The notes beneath the pieces were generated by a model that saw only the letters and a program-made list of their open reading frames with translations, was not told the DNA's origin and did no database searches. The position numbers and the translations under genes are program-made. DNA of 41,652 bases, taken from an uncultured Asticcacaulis sp. (GTDB taxonomy: Bacteria; Pseudomonadota; Alphaproteobacteria; Caulobacterales; Caulobacteraceae). Every line of letters begins with the position of its first letter. Within the stretch, counting starts at the first letter, position 1. The stretch is taken from assembly GCA_936940865.1 (NCBI GenBank), contig CAKZJB010000126.1, forward strand, positions 1 to 41,652, read 5' to 3'. Below are positions 11,735 to 20,039 of the stretch, one piece after another.

Positions 11735-12937
11735 TTATGCCTTTCGAAACGACGCCGTTTCCGGTTCGTAAATGTAGTCGGTGATCGACCCATCTCGTAT
11801 CTTTGCCACCGCATCGTCAATGACGTGCAACGGCACCAGGAACCATTCCCGCGGCTGGACCGGATTGCCGAAGCGATCGGGAATCGTCAGGTCCAGGGCG
11901 GCAAGACGAAAGACCTTGTGGATCAGGGCCTCCAGCCGCTTGCGGTTGATGTTCGCAAGCGCGTAGGTGGCGACGACCTCGACCCCGGCCAGCAGATAGG
12001 TCGAGTCCTTTTCGGCATTGGCGATACGCGCCTCGACGCTGCCGCCGGTCACGCCGATCTTGTGGATCAGACTGCGGTGTTCGGAAATGAATGGATGGTT
12101 CGACTGGCTGCGCAGCACGTAGATAGTGCCACTCCTGATATCGCCCTCGTCATCTTCGAATCCAAACAGCGGACCTGCGGACGGCTCTGTGATGCGGCGG
12201 CCTGCCTCGTCCTTGTAAAGCGCGCGTTGCAGCGACCTGCGCAACAGATTGCTTTCGGTCCCGTTCGAATAAATCACCCTCAGCCGCGCATCGGTTTCGC
12301 CATTCGGCGCGCGTATGGGCTCGCCCTCATCGGCGATCAGGGCGATTTGTCCGCCCAGTATGAAGAACTGGCCCTTCACCATGTCCGACTTCACCATGCC
12401 CAGATCGCGGACAAATGGACGGGTTTCGCGCGCGCCGGCCCGCAACTCGTCCTCGACCTGGTCGAACAGAGGTTTGAAATCGGCAAAATCGATGCAGCGC
12501 TCCCGCGTTGCGATCTCCTCGGCGGCGCGCTTGTCCTCGCGCGACGGAACGTGCCGCAAGATGGTTATGTCGTCATCGCCGTCACCCTCGGCCGTCACCC
12601 CAAGGTCTGCCAGCAAGTCATCGTCGTCCATATCGGCCGGTGTCGTGTTGAGCGCATCGGCCGACCCATCCAGCAGGCCGTAACGGTCCAGCGGGGCCAG
12701 CAAGTCATGAAACTGCGAAAGCTGGCGCAGGCGGTCGAGCCGAACCGCATACAGCCGCTCGAAAATATCGCGCTCTTCGCCGTGCTGCGGGGCGCGGCCA
12801 TGGTCCTCACGAAACCTCAGAATGTCTTCGAAGCCGGCAATAACCCGTTCTTCTTCCGGGGTGTGCGACCGTGCAGGTCTATGCTCGACCTCGACCCCCA
12901 GTTCGGCCAGCAATTCGTCATCTGTCAGTTCAGCCAT
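11735..12937 (-). CDS. GIY-YIG/T5orf172-like nuclease-family protein, last gene of the defence-like operon
   Basis: This 400-residue protein is the fifth and last gene of the operon. The C-terminal third (about 268-390) looks like a GIY-YIG/T5orf172 domain: GTIYVLRS (from 270), KIGVT (293-297), Arg304 and a Glu at about 336 (RLEALIH) in the expected order. The N-terminal part is acidic and carries two copies of a short motif, DDELLAELGV (about 6-15) and DDDLLADLGV (about 105-114). The middle has a CIDFADFKPLFDQV segment I associate with helicase-linked GIY-YIG proteins. ATG 12937 is preferred to 12985 because it overlaps the helicase stop by 8 nt, matching the other coupled junctions. A nuclease role is inferred from the fold. 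Confidence 0.75.
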   Translation of the reverse strand: MAELTDDELLAELGVEVEHRPARSHTPEEERVIAGFEDILRFREDHGRAPQHGEERDIFERLYAVRLDRLRQLSQFHDLLAPLDRYGLLDGSADALNTTPADMDDDDLLADLGVTAEGDGDDDITILRHVPSREDKRAAEEIATRERCIDFADFKPLFDQVEDELRAGARETRPFVRDLGMVKSDMVKGQFFILGGQIALIADEGEPIRAPNGETDARLRVIYSNGTESNLLRRSLQRALYKDEAGRRITEPSAGPLFGFEDDEGDIRSGTIYVLRSQSNHPFISEHRSLIHKIGVTGGSVEARIANAEKDSTYLLAGVEVVATYALANINRKRLEALIHKVFRLAALDLTIPDRFGNPVQPREWFLVPLHVIDDAVAKIRDGSITDYIYEPETASFRKA

Positions 12938-15017
12938 TGGACGCCTGTGCGCGGAAACGGGCAAGGGCGGCAACGCCTTCCGCAAGACGTTTTTCCCACG
13001 GGTCCTGGGCGTTGATGTCGGGAAGCCGGCCGCGCTGGATCTTAAAGTCTCGCGCCTTCAATGCCAATGCCCTGGCCTCGTCATACGGTATATTGACCTT
13101 CTTTTTCGCGATGGCGGAAGCCACCTGCTTCAGCGTCGATTCGTTCATTGCCTTGGCCAGGATGGAATAGGCCGCTTCGAACGGATTGATGCTGTCGATC
13201 ATGTCGATATCGAGGTCGCGGACGTCCATGGCAATCTTGCGCACGCCTTCAAGCAGGGCCAGGTTGGCCTTGATCTCGCCGCCGCTGCCGGCGTCACCGC
13301 CGCCGGCCAGCTGCTTGGCGCGCTGGGTGAGGTTGAGCGCCGCGATGGCGTGTTGCCGGACCGCCTCCTGATCCTCGTCGGTCAGCTCGGGATAGCGGTC
13401 GCGCACGATCTTGCCCATGCGGACCAGGGTCAGGTCCTGGGCGATGGTGTCCCCGTCGACCTGTTTGCCGTCGAACAGGCCTTTTTCCAGCGCCGGCTTG
13501 TCCTGAATGAAGGCGGTGATGACCTCGTTCAGGTCTTCCTTGCAGATACGGCTGGCCTCTGGGCTTTTGGGCGTCACCAGTCCCTTGATTTCAAAGTGGA
13601 ACTGCCCGGTCTCTTCACTAAAGCCGACATTGGTGCGACCGGGCTGATAGCCGCCTTCGTATTCATAACCCTCCATCGGCCCGTTGTTCTTCGGCGTGAA
13701 GTTGAACTTGGGCGCCAGCACCTGTTCCATGAGCAGGCTGGCGGCAATGGCTTTCAGGGTGTCGTTGATCGCGTCGGCCACCATGCCCTCGGACGCATGG
13801 GGTTCGGCGATCAGATTGGTGAAGGATGAGGTTTCCTTGCCCGGCGCATCGCGGGTGGCGCGGCCGATGATCTGGATGATTTCCGTCAGGCTTGAGCGAT
13901 AGCCGACCGTCAGGGCGTGTTCGCACCAGATCCAGTCGAAGCCTTCCTTGGCCATGCCCAGCGCAATGATGATATCGACATGATCGCGGTTATTGCGTTG
14001 CGACGGGTCTTTCAGTGACGCCAGTACCTTGCCGCGTCTCAGGGCGTCCGTGTCGTCCACCAAATCGGCAATCTTCAAAATCCGTCCGTCCGGCAAGGCG
14101 ACAAGGTGAAAACCGGTTTCGGGATCGACGCCCTTCCATTCCCCCAGATAGTCGATGATCTCTTCGACCTCCTTGACCTTGTCCTTCGTGCTTTCGCGCG
14201 AATTGACCGAAGGAATATGGACGATGGTCTTTTTCGCCGGATCGAGCACCGCCTCGATCGCTTCAAGATAGCGGCCGGAATAGAAGAAATAGCCGATGTT
14301 CAGCGATTTCAGATATTCATAGCCGTTGAGCTGCTCGAAATAGGTATAGGTCACGGTCTCGAACCGCGCCTCGTCTTCGGGCGTCAGCACCGGGGCGGCA
14401 TCGCCGCGGAAATAGCTGCCGGTCATGGCAACGATATGCGTCTTGTCGCGCTGGATGAAGGCCCGCAGCTGGTTGCCCAGTATGCTGTCTTCGCTGGCCG
14501 AGACATGGTGGAATTCGTCGACGGCGATCAGGCGGCCGTCGAACGCTTCGATGCCCAGTTGTTCGACCGCAAAGCGGAAGGTGGCGTGGGTGCACACCAG
14601 GACCTTGTCGTCGCCGTCAAGGAAGTGGCCGACGGCGCGCACCTTGGACGGGTCGGCGCGTTCCTCGTCCGGTCCTGGGGCGTTGCACAGGTTCCATTGC
14701 GGCTTGACGGTCCAGTCGGCCCAGAAACCGTATTTCGACAGGGGTTCGTCGGCGAAGCTGCCGCCGATCGACTTTTCCGGCACGACGATCAGCGCCTGTT
14801 TGATCCCCTGCTTGTGCAGCTTGTCCAATGCGATGAACATCAAGGCTCGCGACTTGCCCGACGCCGGCGGCGACTTGATCAGCAGATATTGCTCACCGCG
14901 CTTGGCATAGGCGCGCGCCTGCATGACCCGCATGCCCAGTTCGTTCGCCTTGGCAGAGGCGCCGGTGCGGGCGGTGGTAAAGGATACCGCCGGGATCGGT
15001 TTCTTGGGCTCCGTCAT
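12930..15017 (-). CDS. DEAD/DEAH-box (SF2) helicase, Res-subunit-like
   Basis: This 695-residue protein has the SF2 motifs in order: Walker A PPASGKS (50-56), motif II DEFHH (167-171), motif III TGS (199-201), and motif VI QIIGRATR (382-389). It resembles the helicase core of type III restriction (Res) subunits. The region after residue 450 is helical and charged, and I see no PD-(D/E)xK nuclease motif, so cleavage would have to come from a partner. It starts by ATGA overlap with the gene before it and ends by an 8-nt overlap with the GIY-YIG gene after it. It probably translocates on or unwinds DNA within a restriction-type complex. Confidence 0.85.
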   Translation of the reverse strand: MTEPKKPIPAVSFTTARTGASAKANELGMRVMQARAYAKRGEQYLLIKSPPASGKSRALMFIALDKLHKQGIKQALIVVPEKSIGGSFADEPLSKYGFWADWTVKPQWNLCNAPGPDEERADPSKVRAVGHFLDGDDKVLVCTHATFRFAVEQLGIEAFDGRLIAVDEFHHVSASEDSILGNQLRAFIQRDKTHIVAMTGSYFRGDAAPVLTPEDEARFETVTYTYFEQLNGYEYLKSLNIGYFFYSGRYLEAIEAVLDPAKKTIVHIPSVNSRESTKDKVKEVEEIIDYLGEWKGVDPETGFHLVALPDGRILKIADLVDDTDALRRGKVLASLKDPSQRNNRDHVDIIIALGMAKEGFDWIWCEHALTVGYRSSLTEIIQIIGRATRDAPGKETSSFTNLIAEPHASEGMVADAINDTLKAIAASLLMEQVLAPKFNFTPKNNGPMEGYEYEGGYQPGRTNVGFSEETGQFHFEIKGLVTPKSPEASRICKEDLNEVITAFIQDKPALEKGLFDGKQVDGDTIAQDLTLVRMGKIVRDRYPELTDEDQEAVRQHAIAALNLTQRAKQLAGGGDAGSGGEIKANLALLEGVRKIAMDVRDLDIDMIDSINPFEAAYSILAKAMNESTLKQVASAIAKKKVNIPYDEARALALKARDFKIQRGRLPDINAQDPWEKRLAEGVAALARFRAQASNG

Positions 15018-16210
15018 CGTTTTCCCCTCTGTTTGTACCCCAGCGCGGCGCTGCGGCCCTTGGCCCAGGCCTTAGCGATTTCGTCAGGCGTCGCCGCATA
15101 AAATTCGCCGCCCAAATGATGACCGGTTTTCGCCAGATGGTCTTTCATGGCGCTTTCACCACATTCCGCCGCTTCAAAGGTGGGATAGGGCTCATGTCCG
15201 TCCTCCCGCGTGGTCCGTGCGGCCGTCCAGGTAAAGGCGCCTCGTGGCATGGCCTTGCGAAACGCCTCAAGACGGGTTTGCGGACTGAGTGACAGGCCGA
15301 TCTTGTAGATGCGCTGACCATTGGCGGGCCGGCCCAGATAGGCGGACACATCGCCGCAAAGCTCAAGGACATAGAGTTCCTTTGGCGTGTCGACGGGTTC
15401 ACCCGGGACGACATATCCCATGCGTCGGGCGGGACCGGCTCTGACCTTGTTGCGGCCGTTGTCGTCGCTGCCCTTGCCTGGATAAGTGATTTCCGGATCG
15501 CGCACGGGCTCGCCGCCGAACACCGGGACCTCAACGTAGGGAATGTGACGCAGCTTTTCGATAAGGGCGGGCTGGATCACCTCTCCACTGGCGGCAACCG
15601 ACCGGGCGCGCGGGGCAAGGGTAGGGTCGAACTCGTCGATCTCAGGTCGGAATTCGGGGAGGAACTCGTACGCCTTTATCGCTTTCAGCGAATACACCCA
15701 CTTTTCGGGATTGAGGCCGTGGTGGCCTTCGGTGGTGAATTCGTCGCGATGTCCGGCAATGTGTGAAACCAGATAGAAGCCCGTCACTCTTCCCCTGGTC
15801 AGTTCAGGGGCATCGACGGCGTTCTTTGTGACATAGACCACCATGATGAACGGGTCGGTTGTTTCTCGCACAACGGAGTCGCGCCGGCCTGGCAGGGTGA
15901 AGCCGACCGTGCCCCAGGTTTCCGGCTTCCAGCCCCAGAATGAGGTGAGCATGACCGTATAGTCGCCGGACCAGGGATCGAAACCGTTTTGAGAGTGGTT
16001 GGGTATGCCGTTTTCATGCGCGTCTACGAAGGCGGCGACGCTGCCGTACGTCTGGACGACCTTGCTTGATGCGATTTGGCTGATGACATAACCATCCGTC
16101 GACCAGCCATAATGGTCAAACATCTCTTGCAGGCCCCCGTAATGCTTTGCCGCAATGTCATTGACTGCGGCCTTGTCCCAGCCCGGACCTCTCGTTGGAG
16201 CTTTCATCAT
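15014..16210 (-). CDS. protein with C-terminal GIY-YIG-like domain and unknown N-terminal domain
   Basis: This 398-residue protein is the third gene of the operon. Residues 278-372 look like a divergent GIY-YIG/T5orf172 nuclease domain: LYVLE (279-283), YKIG (302-305), Arg313 within SPQTRLEAF, Glu352 within GESAMKDHL, and a GGEFY motif (367-371). The first ~230 residues form a Trp-rich domain (WSGDYTVMLTSFWGWKPETW) that I do not recognise; it could be a DNA- or modification-reading domain. Both ends overlap neighbours by ATGA. A second in-frame ATG lies immediately after the first. Function is inferred from fold and context only. Confidence 0.65.
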   Translation of the reverse strand: MMKAPTRGPGWDKAAVNDIAAKHYGGLQEMFDHYGWSTDGYVISQIASSKVVQTYGSVAAFVDAHENGIPNHSQNGFDPWSGDYTVMLTSFWGWKPETWGTVGFTLPGRRDSVVRETTDPFIMVVYVTKNAVDAPELTRGRVTGFYLVSHIAGHRDEFTTEGHHGLNPEKWVYSLKAIKAYEFLPEFRPEIDEFDPTLAPRARSVAASGEVIQPALIEKLRHIPYVEVPVFGGEPVRDPEITYPGKGSDDNGRNKVRAGPARRMGYVVPGEPVDTPKELYVLELCGDVSAYLGRPANGQRIYKIGLSLSPQTRLEAFRKAMPRGAFTWTAARTTREDGHEPYPTFEAAECGESAMKDHLAKTGHHLGGEFYAATPDEIAKAWAKGRSAALGYKQRGKR

Positions 16211-17241
16211 ATTTCCCTTTTTGCGCCCTTAGGGTTGCGTGAAAGCTTTACTGTTTGCTCTATCTGGTTGAGTTCGGCAAGGTCTTCGGCGTCGGCCCGG
16301 ACGGCGTCTTCCTTTTTGCGCCGAGCGTCGAAGTCGGCGTAGATTTCGTTGACCCTGGCTTCCATCTGGGCGTGGCTGATGCGTCCCTTGGTTTGCAGGA
16401 TCGGCTTGTCATTGAATTCCAGCAGCCGGTCGACATTGGATTGCCAGTAGGCGAGGGTCAGGTCCTTGCGGTCCTTGACGCGCAGTTCGGCGGTTTCGAG
16501 GAAGATGACGGTCAGCCGGTTCAGGCTGTCGACTTCATCCGCCGTCAGGTAGTTCTTGGCGGTGACGATGTCGCCCTTGCGGACGACCGTGCCCTTCCAA
16601 GATGTCAGGTTCATATTGGGGGCGCCGGCATCGGCGCGCGACAGAATGATTTCCGCCGCCGTCATGCCCGTAATGGCGAACAGCAGCTTGTTCTGCGTCT
16701 CGGCAAAGAACATCTGCGTCGCCTTGTCGGTCGGATCGTAATCGGACGACAGGGCCAGGAGGTCGCGCACCTTTTGATAAAAGCGCAGTTCCGAGGCTCG
16801 GATATCGCGGATGCGTTCCAGCAGTTCGTCGAAATAGTCCGCCCGGCCGCCGCCGTTCTTCAGGCGGTCGTCATCGATGACGAAGCCCTTGATCAGGTAT
16901 TGCTTAAGATGCGTATTCGCCCATTTCCGGAACTCGGTGCCGCGCGCGCTGCGGACGCGGAAGCCGATGGCCAGGATCATGTCCAGGGCATAGAAGGCGA
17001 CCGGATAATTTTTGCCGTCGGCGGCAGTTGTCAAGTAATCCTTGACAACTGAATCTGCCGATAATTCCTTTTCCTTCAATATGTTGGATATGTGAAGACT
17101 GATGTTCTGCTTGGAGGTGGCAAAAAGCTCCGCTAACTGGCTCTGGTTCATCCACACATTGCCGTCGCGCGCGAACAGGGCGACCGAGGCCTTGCCGTCG
17201 CGCGTGTTGTAGATGATCAGGTTCTGTTCCCCGTCGCTCAT
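16207..17241 (-). CDS. RhuM-family protein
   Basis: This 344-residue protein belongs to the virulence RhuM family named from Salmonella SPI-3. The N-terminus has a winged-helix-like segment (WMNQSQLAELFATSKQNIS), followed by the conserved core with GFRVRSARGTEFRKWAN and, further on, FFAETQNKLLFAITGMTAAEI. The C-terminal 70 residues are charged and helical. RhuM genes often sit inside restriction-modification operons in defence islands, and their molecular role is not established. Here it lies between the methyltransferase and the nuclease/helicase genes, with ATGA overlaps on both sides, so it is produced with them. Confidence 0.88.
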   Translation of the reverse strand: MSDGEQNLIIYNTRDGKASVALFARDGNVWMNQSQLAELFATSKQNISLHISNILKEKELSADSVVKDYLTTAADGKNYPVAFYALDMILAIGFRVRSARGTEFRKWANTHLKQYLIKGFVIDDDRLKNGGGRADYFDELLERIRDIRASELRFYQKVRDLLALSSDYDPTDKATQMFFAETQNKLLFAITGMTAAEIILSRADAGAPNMNLTSWKGTVVRKGDIVTAKNYLTADEVDSLNRLTVIFLETAELRVKDRKDLTLAYWQSNVDRLLEFNDKPILQTKGRISHAQMEARVNEIYADFDARRKKEDAVRADAEDLAELNQIEQTVKLSRNPKGAKREI

Positions 17242-20039
17242 GCGCTGGCCTTGCCGGGCTTGGACTTGGCGGCGGTCATGCGCGTATAGAGCTCGAACAG
17301 GTGTTCCAGCCGCTCGGTATCGTTGCGGAAGCGTCGTCCGATATAGATGCGCTCCAGCGTCTCATCGTTGCGTTCGTGGGCCTCGCGCAGGTTCTGCGGC
17401 ATGGTTTCCGGATCGTAGAGATCGGCAATCGTGGCCGGATAGTGTGCCTCACGCGCCAGCAGGATATCCTCGGCCCGGCGGGTCAGTTCGGCCTTGTCGT
17501 CCTCTGTCAGTTTGGGGACGGGGAAGGTGTTCCAGCAAAGTGTGTTAGTAAATCTGTAGTCAGTCCTCATTCGGGCGCAAACGGCTGCTACCCACGAAAT
17601 CATCAATTTTGAAACAACTATACTAAAAACCCAGGTATCTTTACATGGCATTCCAAAGGCAAGGTTGGAAATGGCTACCTCCGGCGGTAGTATTCCAGAA
17701 GGTAAATATTCTCGGTTCTCAGAACTCGTAACTGGAACGCAAATTATTGGGGTCTTCGGTAGCGGCTTTCGCTCATCGAATCGATACGACCAATCAGCCG
17801 CGCGCCTAGTGGCCGCTTTCGTACTCGTTAGTCTAAATGAGCGTACTTTTTCTATGCGGTCTCTCAGAAAAGGTATCGATAGCACTTGGTGGCTGTCATT
17901 ATCTTCTATCCATATGCAGTATCGAATTTCACCTCTTATCAATTCTAGCGAACCGGCAAATCTACGCACAAATTTTTTTATTTGCACTGCTGTTAATTTT
18001 CCTCTTTTTATATCTATCCTTTCTAAAAGAAGATGTCCCCCGTCTGTGGGGGAGTTACCGCGGTCGAATTCAGGCAATCCTGAAATTTGGAACCTCGATG
18101 GTTCGACGATAGTATTTTTTCCGGAGATTAAGTACGCGTTGATATAAGGAGTATGCCGCACGATCGAATTGTCGTGCTCGTTCAACTCGAAGAGGCGACG
18201 GTATCCGCTGCTCGCAATAGCAATGCCAACAATCACCACAGTGACGCCGGCGTTGTAACTAGCGAGATTTTTCCATGTGAAAGAAGTGTGGGCAAAAGCG
18301 ATTTCATGCCCGGTTTCGAAAATTAACGGCCAGAGGATCGGTACTTGCTGTCCTTGACAAATAGAGTTGGTGGACACGAAGGCGGCCGAGGCATTGTTTT
18401 GAGTGCCATAGTCGGCTGCTTTCATGAACCATCCAGCTACGTAGTCGAGCGATTTCCAGTTTGGTGTTCGGTGTTCAAAAATGCTTTGAAGATCGGCCTT
18501 TTGTTCCGCTGCCTGCCACTTTGAGCCAAGGTACGGCGGATTGCCACAGATATAGGTTTCGCCACCTTCATTCTCGAATTCGATCCTAGCTTGGTCAAGC
18601 GGTGCGCCAAACAGGTCGTCACCCCATATCTTCGCATCCGATTTGTTACCCTGTGGCGGGCAGATGCTTAGCCAATCGAGCCGCAGCGCATTGCCGCAAA
18701 CGATCCAGTTTTCCGCATTGAGCGGCAGGAACTCCGCCAAGGCTTCCTTCTGACCGCGATAGAGGACATCGCATTGATATTCGGCGATGATCAGGGCCAG
18801 GCGAGCGATTTCCGCCGGAAAGTCGCGCAGTTCGATACCGCGAAAATTGGTCAGCGGGATATCCGAGCGCCGGTCGGCTTCGCCGCGCCGTAGATTGATC
18901 TCGGCCTCGATCTCGCGCATCTGCTTATAGGCGATGACCAGGAAGTTGCCCGATCCGCAGGCCGGATCGAAGACGCGGATACGCGCCATGCGGTTGCGCA
19001 GGTTCAAAAGCTTGCGGCCATTGGTGCCGGCCTCTTCCAGCTTTTCCCGCAGGTCGTCGAGAAACAGCGGGTTCAGCACCTTCAGGATATTGGGTACGCT
19101 GGTATAGTGCATGCCCAGCGCGCCGCGTTCGTCGTCGTCGGCGACGGCCTGGATCATGCTGCCGAAAATATCGGGATTGATACGCCGCCAGTTCAGATTG
19201 CCGATGCTGATCAGATAGGACCGCGCCAGCCGGCTGAAGACGGGAACATCTAGGCTGCCGGAAAACAGCCCGCCATTGACATAGGGAAAGGCGTCCGCCC
19301 ACGGGCGAATATCGGCGGCCCTGCGGTAACGGCCGTCCGGCGCGCCATTGTGCCGGGTCGGCGTGTTCATCGCCAGGAAGATGTGCGCGATTACCTCATG
19401 CGTATTCGAGGAGTCGTCGGCGCTCATCTGCTGCACCGTATGGGTGAACAGGCCTTCGCCGTGGAAAATGTCGGTGTCTTCGGCGAAGAAGCAGAAGATC
19501 AGCCGCGCCATGAAATGGTTCATGTCCGGCCGGCGCTCGGCCTTGGCCCAGTCCGGGTTGCTGTTCAGCAACTCGACATAGAGACGGTTGAGGCGGCCCG
19601 TCGCCTTGATATCGAAACTGCTTTCCTTGATTTCCTTGACCGTGCTGATCCCGGCCAGCGGCAGGAAAACGCCGAAGCGATCCGGAAAACTCGCATAGTC
19701 GGTATCGACAATGACGCCTTCGGCGAGGTCCTCCGCCTGGAAACGCTTGCCGTCGGTCGCCAGGATGAAGCGCGCCTTGGCCGTGGCCGTTTTCGGGCTG
19801 TCGCGCAGGGCGCCGAGCGTAGCGTCGACCTCGCCCTCGGCGCAGACCTTGATGTGGATATGGTTGCGTTGCAGCACCGCGCCTGGCACGTCGGAGGCCG
19901 CGCCCGCGCCGGCCCTCAGCTTCTTGAGCGTCGTTTCCTTGTTGCCGTAGGCGCGCAGGAAGGCGAAGGGAAACTCTTGCGGATCAAAGGGCTGGGCCGC
20001 CAGTTCGGATACCGCCTGTTCGATTTCAACCGCGTTCAT
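17238..20039 (-). CDS. MmeI-like class I DNA (adenine-N6) methyltransferase
   Basis: This 933-residue first gene of the operon is a gamma-type DNA methyltransferase. The SAM motif is FDPACGSGNF (357-366) and the catalytic motif IV is NPPY (500-503), typical of adenine-N6 enzymes. A helical spacer containing FMARLIFCFFAEDTDIF precedes the methylase core, as in the MmeI family. I do not see the D...ExK nuclease motif that N-termini of type IIL enzymes carry, so restriction may be in trans. Roughly residues 466-833 (17540-18640), covering the presumed target-recognition domain, are much more AT-rich than the flanks, yet the frame is intact. ATG 20039 is preferred over an upstream in-frame start because the conserved-looking sequence begins there. 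Confidence 0.88.
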   Translation of the reverse strand: MNAVEIEQAVSELAAQPFDPQEFPFAFLRAYGNKETTLKKLRAGAGAASDVPGAVLQRNHIHIKVCAEGEVDATLGALRDSPKTATAKARFILATDGKRFQAEDLAEGVIVDTDYASFPDRFGVFLPLAGISTVKEIKESSFDIKATGRLNRLYVELLNSNPDWAKAERRPDMNHFMARLIFCFFAEDTDIFHGEGLFTHTVQQMSADDSSNTHEVIAHIFLAMNTPTRHNGAPDGRYRRAADIRPWADAFPYVNGGLFSGSLDVPVFSRLARSYLISIGNLNWRRINPDIFGSMIQAVADDDERGALGMHYTSVPNILKVLNPLFLDDLREKLEEAGTNGRKLLNLRNRMARIRVFDPACGSGNFLVIAYKQMREIEAEINLRRGEADRRSDIPLTNFRGIELRDFPAEIARLALIIAEYQCDVLYRGQKEALAEFLPLNAENWIVCGNALRLDWLSICPPQGNKSDAKIWGDDLFGAPLDQARIEFENEGGETYICGNPPYLGSKWQAAEQKADLQSIFEHRTPNWKSLDYVAGWFMKAADYGTQNNASAAFVSTNSICQGQQVPILWPLIFETGHEIAFAHTSFTWKNLASYNAGVTVVIVGIAIASSGYRRLFELNEHDNSIVRHTPYINAYLISGKNTIVEPSRFQISGLPEFDRGNSPTDGGHLLLERIDIKRGKLTAVQIKKFVRRFAGSLELIRGEIRYCIWIEDNDSHQVLSIPFLRDRIEKVRSFRLTSTKAATRRAADWSYRFDERKPLPKTPIICVPVTSSENREYLPSGILPPEVAISNLAFGMPCKDTWVFSIVVSKLMISWVAAVCARMRTDYRFTNTLCWNTFPVPKLTEDDKAELTRRAEDILLAREAHYPATIADLYDPETMPQNLREAHERNDETLERIYIGRRFRNDTERLEHLFELYTRMTAAKSKPGKASA

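Follow-up and report, generated by a model that had tools for sequence, protein, structure and literature searches.

The minus-strand operon at positions 11735..20039 of a contig from an uncultured Asticcacaulis sp. (CAKZJB010000126.1, 41,652 nt, analysed over its whole length and called the window here) contains an intact copy of the published DnmA(YeeA)-YeeB-YeeC gene cluster. Two further genes, which encode a RhuM family protein and open reading frame C (ORF C), are not part of this core but cargo of a slot between dnmA and yeeB. We consider it probable that the whole is an intact, ATP-dependent split restriction-modification (R-M) system with an exchangeable two-gene second-line insert.

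All five minus-strand frames are open, and neighbours overlap by 4, 4, 4, and 8 nt. The core consists of a DnmA/YeeA-type, MmeI-family N6-adenine methyltransferase (MTase) with its own target-recognition domain and a lost nuclease motif (17238..20039, ATG start, 933 amino acids), a YeeB-type superfamily 2 (SF2) helicase/translocase (12930..15017, 695 amino acids), and a YeeC-type protein with a C-terminal T5orf172/GIY-YIG nuclease domain (11735..12937, 400 amino acids counted from the ATG). The slot (15018..17237, same strand) holds RhuM (16207..17241, 344 amino acids) and ORF C (15014..16210, 398 amino acids). This five-gene arrangement with its conserved motifs is far beyond chance. The original prediction, made from the letters alone, had described five minus-strand genes overlapping by 4–8 nt and encoding an NPPY MTase of MmeI type, a RhuM protein, a DEFHH helicase, and two proteins with GIY-YIG-like C-termini. 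The open frames, coordinates, Pfam matches, and motifs bore this out, with the GIY-YIG C-terminus of ORF C recognized from its residues and predicted fold.

The MTase matched all five MmeI Pfam domains (MmeI_Mtase, 1.4e-119), and the MTase, helical spacer, target-recognition, and C-terminal domains of the MmeI type span its full length, with the NPPY catalytic motif of an adenine methyltransferase at 18531..18542 (minus strand). The check for a nuclease motif in the MTase N-terminus, proposed together with the prediction, found none. In the alignment, residues 53–70 (GAVLQRNHIHIKVCAEGE; 19830..19883, minus strand) are the counterpart of the classical MmeI D-x9-E-x-K, and Q, A, and G take the place of D, E, and K, indicating that the MmeI nuclease motif is no longer present in this MTase. 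For comparison, 104 MmeI-type MTase rows were gathered from helicase-anchored loci and from Pfam MmeI_N regions in 385 genomes of the class (65 match places, of which the window and 34 others were fetched; the long ones of 1150–1250 amino acids were mostly left out). Nine rows that were partial or of another type were removed, leaving 95 for alignment. The D-x9-E-x-K motif (DLFWPGVLLVEQK-like) was kept in 11 of them. The window and 83 others (84/95) had Q, L, or W at the D column and G, D, E, or S at the K column; 35 of the 84 motif-less rows did have E at its column, but never together with D or K.

The two kinds of MTase also differed in their neighbours. No YeeB or YeeC match was found near any of 13 nuclease-bearing MmeI rows (two of them partial) in fetched stretches of 3.8–16 kb, whereas YeeB lay downstream of 15 of the 16 full DnmA-like MTases of the MmeI_N set (window counted), the remaining one ending at a contig edge. 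A separate helicase and a GIY-YIG protein are thus the usual partners of the nuclease-free MmeI-type MTase. The row count leaves out two further DnmA-like frames from the MmeI_N set, both of them partial and too short to be included. Nothing was seen after the partial frame on the 3.9 kb contig of one (our locus L152). The other (L153, positions 702–2490) has a cut DnmA-like MTase frame followed by YeeC pieces without a YeeB match and is apparently a decayed locus.

The PADLOC profile PDLC03598, named 'REase_MTase_IIG', scored the window MTase at 920 bits, as would be expected of a plain type IIG/IIL enzyme beside unrelated neighbours. However, it was the best profile for both types, of which four proteins each were tested (DnmA-like ones without a nuclease and MmeI ones with it). 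A single type IIG enzyme was rejected since D-x9-E-x-K is gone from the window MTase, and we regard this explanation as extremely unlikely. Because PDLC03598 also takes true type IIG enzymes, surveys may misread a DnmA locus as a one-gene type IIG system; defence surveys relying on the profile may overcount type IIG and miss the helicase, nuclease, and cargo of a multi-gene system.

The other two core proteins show intact functional residues. The helicase matched Pfam ResIII (9.7e-6) and has the motif II DEFHH (14505..14519, minus strand); its GKS, DEFHH, TGS, and QIIGR-TR motifs were kept in 98/98 aligned rows (window included in this and the next count). YeeC matched T5orf172 (1.4e-12) and MUG113, and its GIY-YIG domain occupies residues 270–380 (11798..12130, minus strand). 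Y273, KIG293-295, and R304 of YeeC were kept in all 91 aligned rows, and E336 and H340 in 89. As far as conserved residues can tell, there is no sign of a dead copy in the window. The yeeB-yeeC offset had a median of -8 and a maximum of 161 bp in 94 loci, and no insertion comparable to the dnmA-yeeB slot was found between yeeB and yeeC in them.

Relatives of the helicase are numerous, with at least 7,999 in total and at least 557 confirmed stretches in the genome collection; 17 of the 385 class genomes contained one, the window's own included. Matches occurred in 264 plasmid records (151 at 80% or more of the helicase length, 113 below 80%), 74 of which were from Acinetobacter. Fragments named yeeA/yeeB/yeeC are carried by Acinetobacter Tn2006 and Tn2009 according to the accessible part of PMC9258068. 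One plasmid protein annotated as 'restriction/modification system component YeeB' was 67.6% identical to the window helicase; this annotated protein, not B. subtilis YeeB itself, was the comparator for the YeeB assignment, and the identity pointed to Bacillus subtilis dnmA(yeeA)-yeeB-yeeC. The window has the features of that cluster: an MmeI-family MTase without D-x9-E-x-K, an SF2 helicase downstream on the same strand, and a T5orf172 protein directly next.

The accessible sections of two papers (PMC7261158, PMC9973331) report that B. subtilis DnmA makes GACGm6AG and groups with MmeI homologues that have no endonuclease motif, with yeeB and yeeC adjoining, and they already suggest that the trio works like a type I R-M system whose nuclease is encoded by a gene of its own. 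The original prediction had inferred that the nuclease function might have moved to separate subunits and had named the operon a candidate for an undescribed system. The first idea agrees with the lost motif and the usual partners, but had in substance been proposed in print. The second does not hold for the core, because the mechanism had been suggested for DnmA-YeeB-YeeC, and stands only in that the five-gene set has no exact match in PADLOC 2.0. Published results on phage restriction are mixed (PMC9973331, in part). The B. subtilis trio restricted neither transformation nor three phages (PMC7261158, PMC9973331, same sections), while Vibrio crassostreae without dnmA or yeeB was more sensitive to some phages (PMC9973331, same sections). 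For B. subtilis, where YeeB and YeeC reportedly miss short C-terminal stretches, the conclusion drawn was an orphan methyltransferase in gene regulation (PMC9973331, same sections), and the window operon could likewise be a relic whose helicase and nuclease are inactive. Against this, its five frames are all open, its ATPase and nuclease residues are intact and near-invariant in 91–98 aligned rows, and V. crassostreae shows the phenotype given above (PMC9973331, same sections). We therefore hold a relic to be quite improbable.

To judge the slot, 96 other loci were compared, consisting of the 80 best matches to the window helicase and 16 from an even draw of the 385 class genomes, so that the sample leans toward near relatives. 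The slot could be judged in 93 of them, as L002, L041, and L076 have no dnmA in the contig; L159, a duplicate of L065, was excluded from the counts. In 47 loci, the slot contained nothing recognizable, and dnmA and yeeB overlapped by 1, 4, or 8 nt in 43 of these 47. The other 46 slots were filled. Labelled inserts fell into 18 sequence clusters, 12 of which could be named, either from Pfam or PADLOC matches of a representative or from likeness to window genes, and three inserts were unlabelled. YhcG (PDC-S02) was the most frequent insert (10 loci), followed by RhuM (PDC-S05, six of the 93), ORF C-like proteins (five of the 93), PDC-S67 (five), SLFN_AlbA_2 proteins with a RecG-like C-terminus (four), and GmrSD_N (three). 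Fic (SoFic), PDDEXK_4, BrnT, and a PLD protein with weak DrmC similarity were found in two loci each (the second PLD member, L064, itself lacks a Pfam match), and OLD-like AAA plus TOPRIM and DUF3800 proteins in one each. With the window included, the first cargo gene overlapped dnmA by 1, 4, or 8 nt in 35/44 labelled cases, and the last cargo gene overlapped yeeB in 23/44.

On a quick helicase tree of 94 rows, drawn without a shuffled-label baseline, the empty or filled state of the slot changed at least 24 times; changes on the same tree numbered at least seven for RhuM, six for ORF C, and seven for YhcG. Slot cargo therefore appears to have been repeatedly gained, lost, or swapped. Two slots deserve separate mention. 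That of L029, counted among the filled ones, is a gap of 133 bp in which 99 bp of YhcG remain, as if the cargo were decaying. At L023 (positions 12088–17000), the sole locus with OLD-like cargo, no YeeC follows YeeB, though the contig continues; a 637 amino acid frame without a YeeC match stands there instead.

These counts bear on the multi-subunit system that the original prediction had envisaged. In its five-protein form, all five gene products would belong to one complex, with each GIY-YIG protein cutting one strand. The 4–8 nt overlaps do run through all five genes, and R and E are retained by both GIY-YIG proteins. However, the slot is empty in about half of the loci judged, RhuM and ORF C occur together in none of the 93 others, RhuM is also found in type I operons, and ORF C relatives are present in four genomes without YeeB. 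On the slot data, such a machine was rejected as the main explanation, and we consider it distinctly improbable. The predicted gene order recurs widely as far as the core trio is concerned, but in none of the 93 other loci with the RhuM and ORF C pair.

RhuM matched Pfam PF13310 at 2.1e-104 (348.8 bits versus a cut-off of 33.7) and was found in 30 of the 385 class genomes, the window's own included. Flanks were listed for 19 RhuM loci. In three of them (L183, L188, and L192), RhuM is preceded by a type I HsdM gene and followed, directly or one gene on, by Methylase_S, and in a fourth (L194) a Methylase_S gene lies behind RhuM. In the window, L189, and L191, RhuM sits in the dnmA-yeeB slot, and in L196 it adjoins an integrase. 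Thus, RhuM is an add-on common to type I and DnmA systems and stands behind the MTase gene in both. Its AlphaFold2 model, of medium quality, only hints at a winged-helix N-terminus, which may possibly be a DNA-binding domain.

ORF C had no match above the cut-off in Pfam, NCBIfam, or PADLOC, and its best Pfam trace was T5orf172 at E 0.18, below the cut-off. Its AlphaFold2 model, in contrast, contains a PUA-superfamily (EVE/ASCH/YTH-like) domain and a GIY-YIG nuclease. The protein starts with a helical module (residues 1–66; 16013..16210), followed by the PUA-superfamily domain (residues 83–240; 15491..15964) and the GIY-YIG/T5orf172 domain (residues 277–390; 15041..15382, all minus strand) with invariant Y280, K303, G305, R313, and E352. 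The EVE domain PF01878 matched one of 39 ORF C family members at E 0.052, not above the cut-off, suggesting that the PUA domain of the model shares only the fold superfamily with EVE. In the predicted structure, a domain of the type that reads modified bases is fused to a nuclease domain, so ORF C is a predicted modification-dependent (type IV-like) endonuclease with a new-looking architecture. The two GIY-YIG proteins look different in kind, YeeC like the core nuclease and ORF C like a modification-dependent cargo nuclease.

The N-terminal module of ORF C (about 65 amino acids, PGWDAKAI..YG..MFEHHGWPERG..; window 16013–16210) was also seen elsewhere. It occurs as a free small frame in the slot or just before yeeB (L006 6075–6293, L011 9462–9719, L075 1159–1512, and L076 17–325), and no Pfam match was found in the two free copies scanned. 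At three further loci, it shares one open frame with another protein, once with ribosomal protein S9 and twice with a BrnA-like antitoxin, of which one case was scanned (L088 1375–2253; L089 and L090 1498–2097).

Considering the domains and the B. subtilis homologue, we suggest that DnmA, with its own target-recognition domain, would recognize a short asymmetric site and methylate adenine. An unmethylated site would recruit YeeB, which may translocate along DNA with ATP, and YeeC would do the cutting. GACGAG lacks adenine on its complementary strand, so the B. subtilis mark is confined to one strand, and one daughter duplex is left unmethylated after replication. One-strand modifiers must avoid cutting the daughter that lacks the mark; type III and type ISP enzymes achieve this by a helicase-mediated two-site rule. 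Given a helicase in a one-strand modifier, such a rule is the simplest prediction, and cutting probably needs two oppositely oriented sites joined by translocation. The PUA-superfamily domain of ORF C would read a modified base and its GIY-YIG domain would cut, so ORF C may attack phage DNA whose modification conceals sites from DnmA. RhuM may serve as a second accessory factor, possibly a DNA-binding one.

By analogy with PrrC/PARIS and type IV examples (PMC12707154, accessible part), the cargo families point to a second line against modified or inhibitor-armed phages. RhuM and ORF C could instead be dormant and arrest the infected cell only once the core has been shut off by a phage inhibitor, like PrrC in its type IC operon. 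The slot lies inside the operon with overlapping starts, other cargo includes Fic, the BrnT RNase toxin, OLD-like, and SLFN_AlbA_2 proteins, and PrrC and PARIS are precedents in a 2025 review (PMC12707154, same part). However, the PUA domain favours a base reader in ORF C, and other cargo is type IV-like (GmrSD_N) or consists of plain nucleases. This guardian role is unlikely, with perhaps one chance in a few.

More generally, we propose, at about even chances, that the junction of dnmA and yeeB serves as a dedicated plug-in site. A constant three-gene core would carry a swappable, translationally coupled second-line module (a modification-dependent nuclease, guardian toxin, or other effector); some modules, RhuM at least, also stand behind a type I MTase gene, and ORF C would represent a PUA-GIY-YIG family covering a blind spot, modified phage DNA. 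No description of the slot was found in the literature searched, which barely covers subscription papers and preprints. In its accessible sections, the nearest remark concerns an 'Uncharacterized' family up- or downstream of dnmA, proposed as a possible further locus member in some bacteria (PMC9973331).

The operon differs from its surroundings in composition. The G+C content is 0.52–0.61 across 12001–20000 and 0.61–0.68 in the other 2 kb windows, as acquired DNA would show. The minimum of 0.52, below the rest of the operon, is reached at 17001–19000, which covers the 3' portion of the MTase gene with its target-recognition domain; an exchange of this domain is possible.

Taken together, the window holds a widespread, partly described split R-M system whose accessory pair exposes a swappable cargo slot. 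DnmA-YeeB-YeeC is widespread, yet the detailed tests found in the accessible literature concern B. subtilis, whose copy was judged to be defunct. With intact copies and a variable slot, two matters become testable: the handover from a nuclease-free MmeI enzyme to a helicase and a GIY-YIG nuclease encoded by separate genes, and possible swappable R-M backup modules against phages that modify DNA or inhibit restriction.

Several known systems share parts of this design. BREX and DISARM signature partners (PglZ, BrxC, DrmA, and DrmB) were absent from the PADLOC matches listed for the five proteins (the best 25 of 27 for the MTase, the best 25 of 39 for RhuM, and all for the other three); related traces among them were weak ones of DrmMI and PglX for the MTase and one of PbeA (0.0013) for the helicase. 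An SF2 translocase plus an MTase is shared with the type I and type III/ISP ATP-dependent systems, and RhuM cargo with type I operons. The nuclease of type I–III ATP-dependent R-M systems is a fused PD-(D/E)XK domain, whereas that of the window is a separate GIY-YIG protein; moreover, the five proteins contain no Methylase_S domain and hence no HsdS, the target-recognition domain being fused within the MTase. MmeI and type IIL enzymes resemble the MTase over its full length in domain content, but the nuclease active site is gone from the window chain, and helicase and nuclease are separate genes. Like VcaM4I and other EVE/PUA-fused modification-dependent (type IV) endonucleases, ORF C would combine a PUA-superfamily reader and a nuclease in one chain, although its PUA domain is divergent and is joined to GIY-YIG and an N-terminal helical module, beyond the reach of Pfam and PADLOC models at their cut-offs. 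PrrC in the EcoprrI type IC operon is likewise an accessory gene embedded in an R-M operon, but it is an anticodon nuclease, and the window cargo belongs to other families. The closest relatives remain the DnmA(YeeA)-YeeB-YeeC clusters of B. subtilis and V. crassostreae, with a nuclease-motif-free MmeI-type MTase, an SF2 helicase, and a T5orf172/GIY-YIG protein in identical order and strand, from which the window differs by carrying RhuM and the PUA-GIY-YIG gene between dnmA and yeeB.

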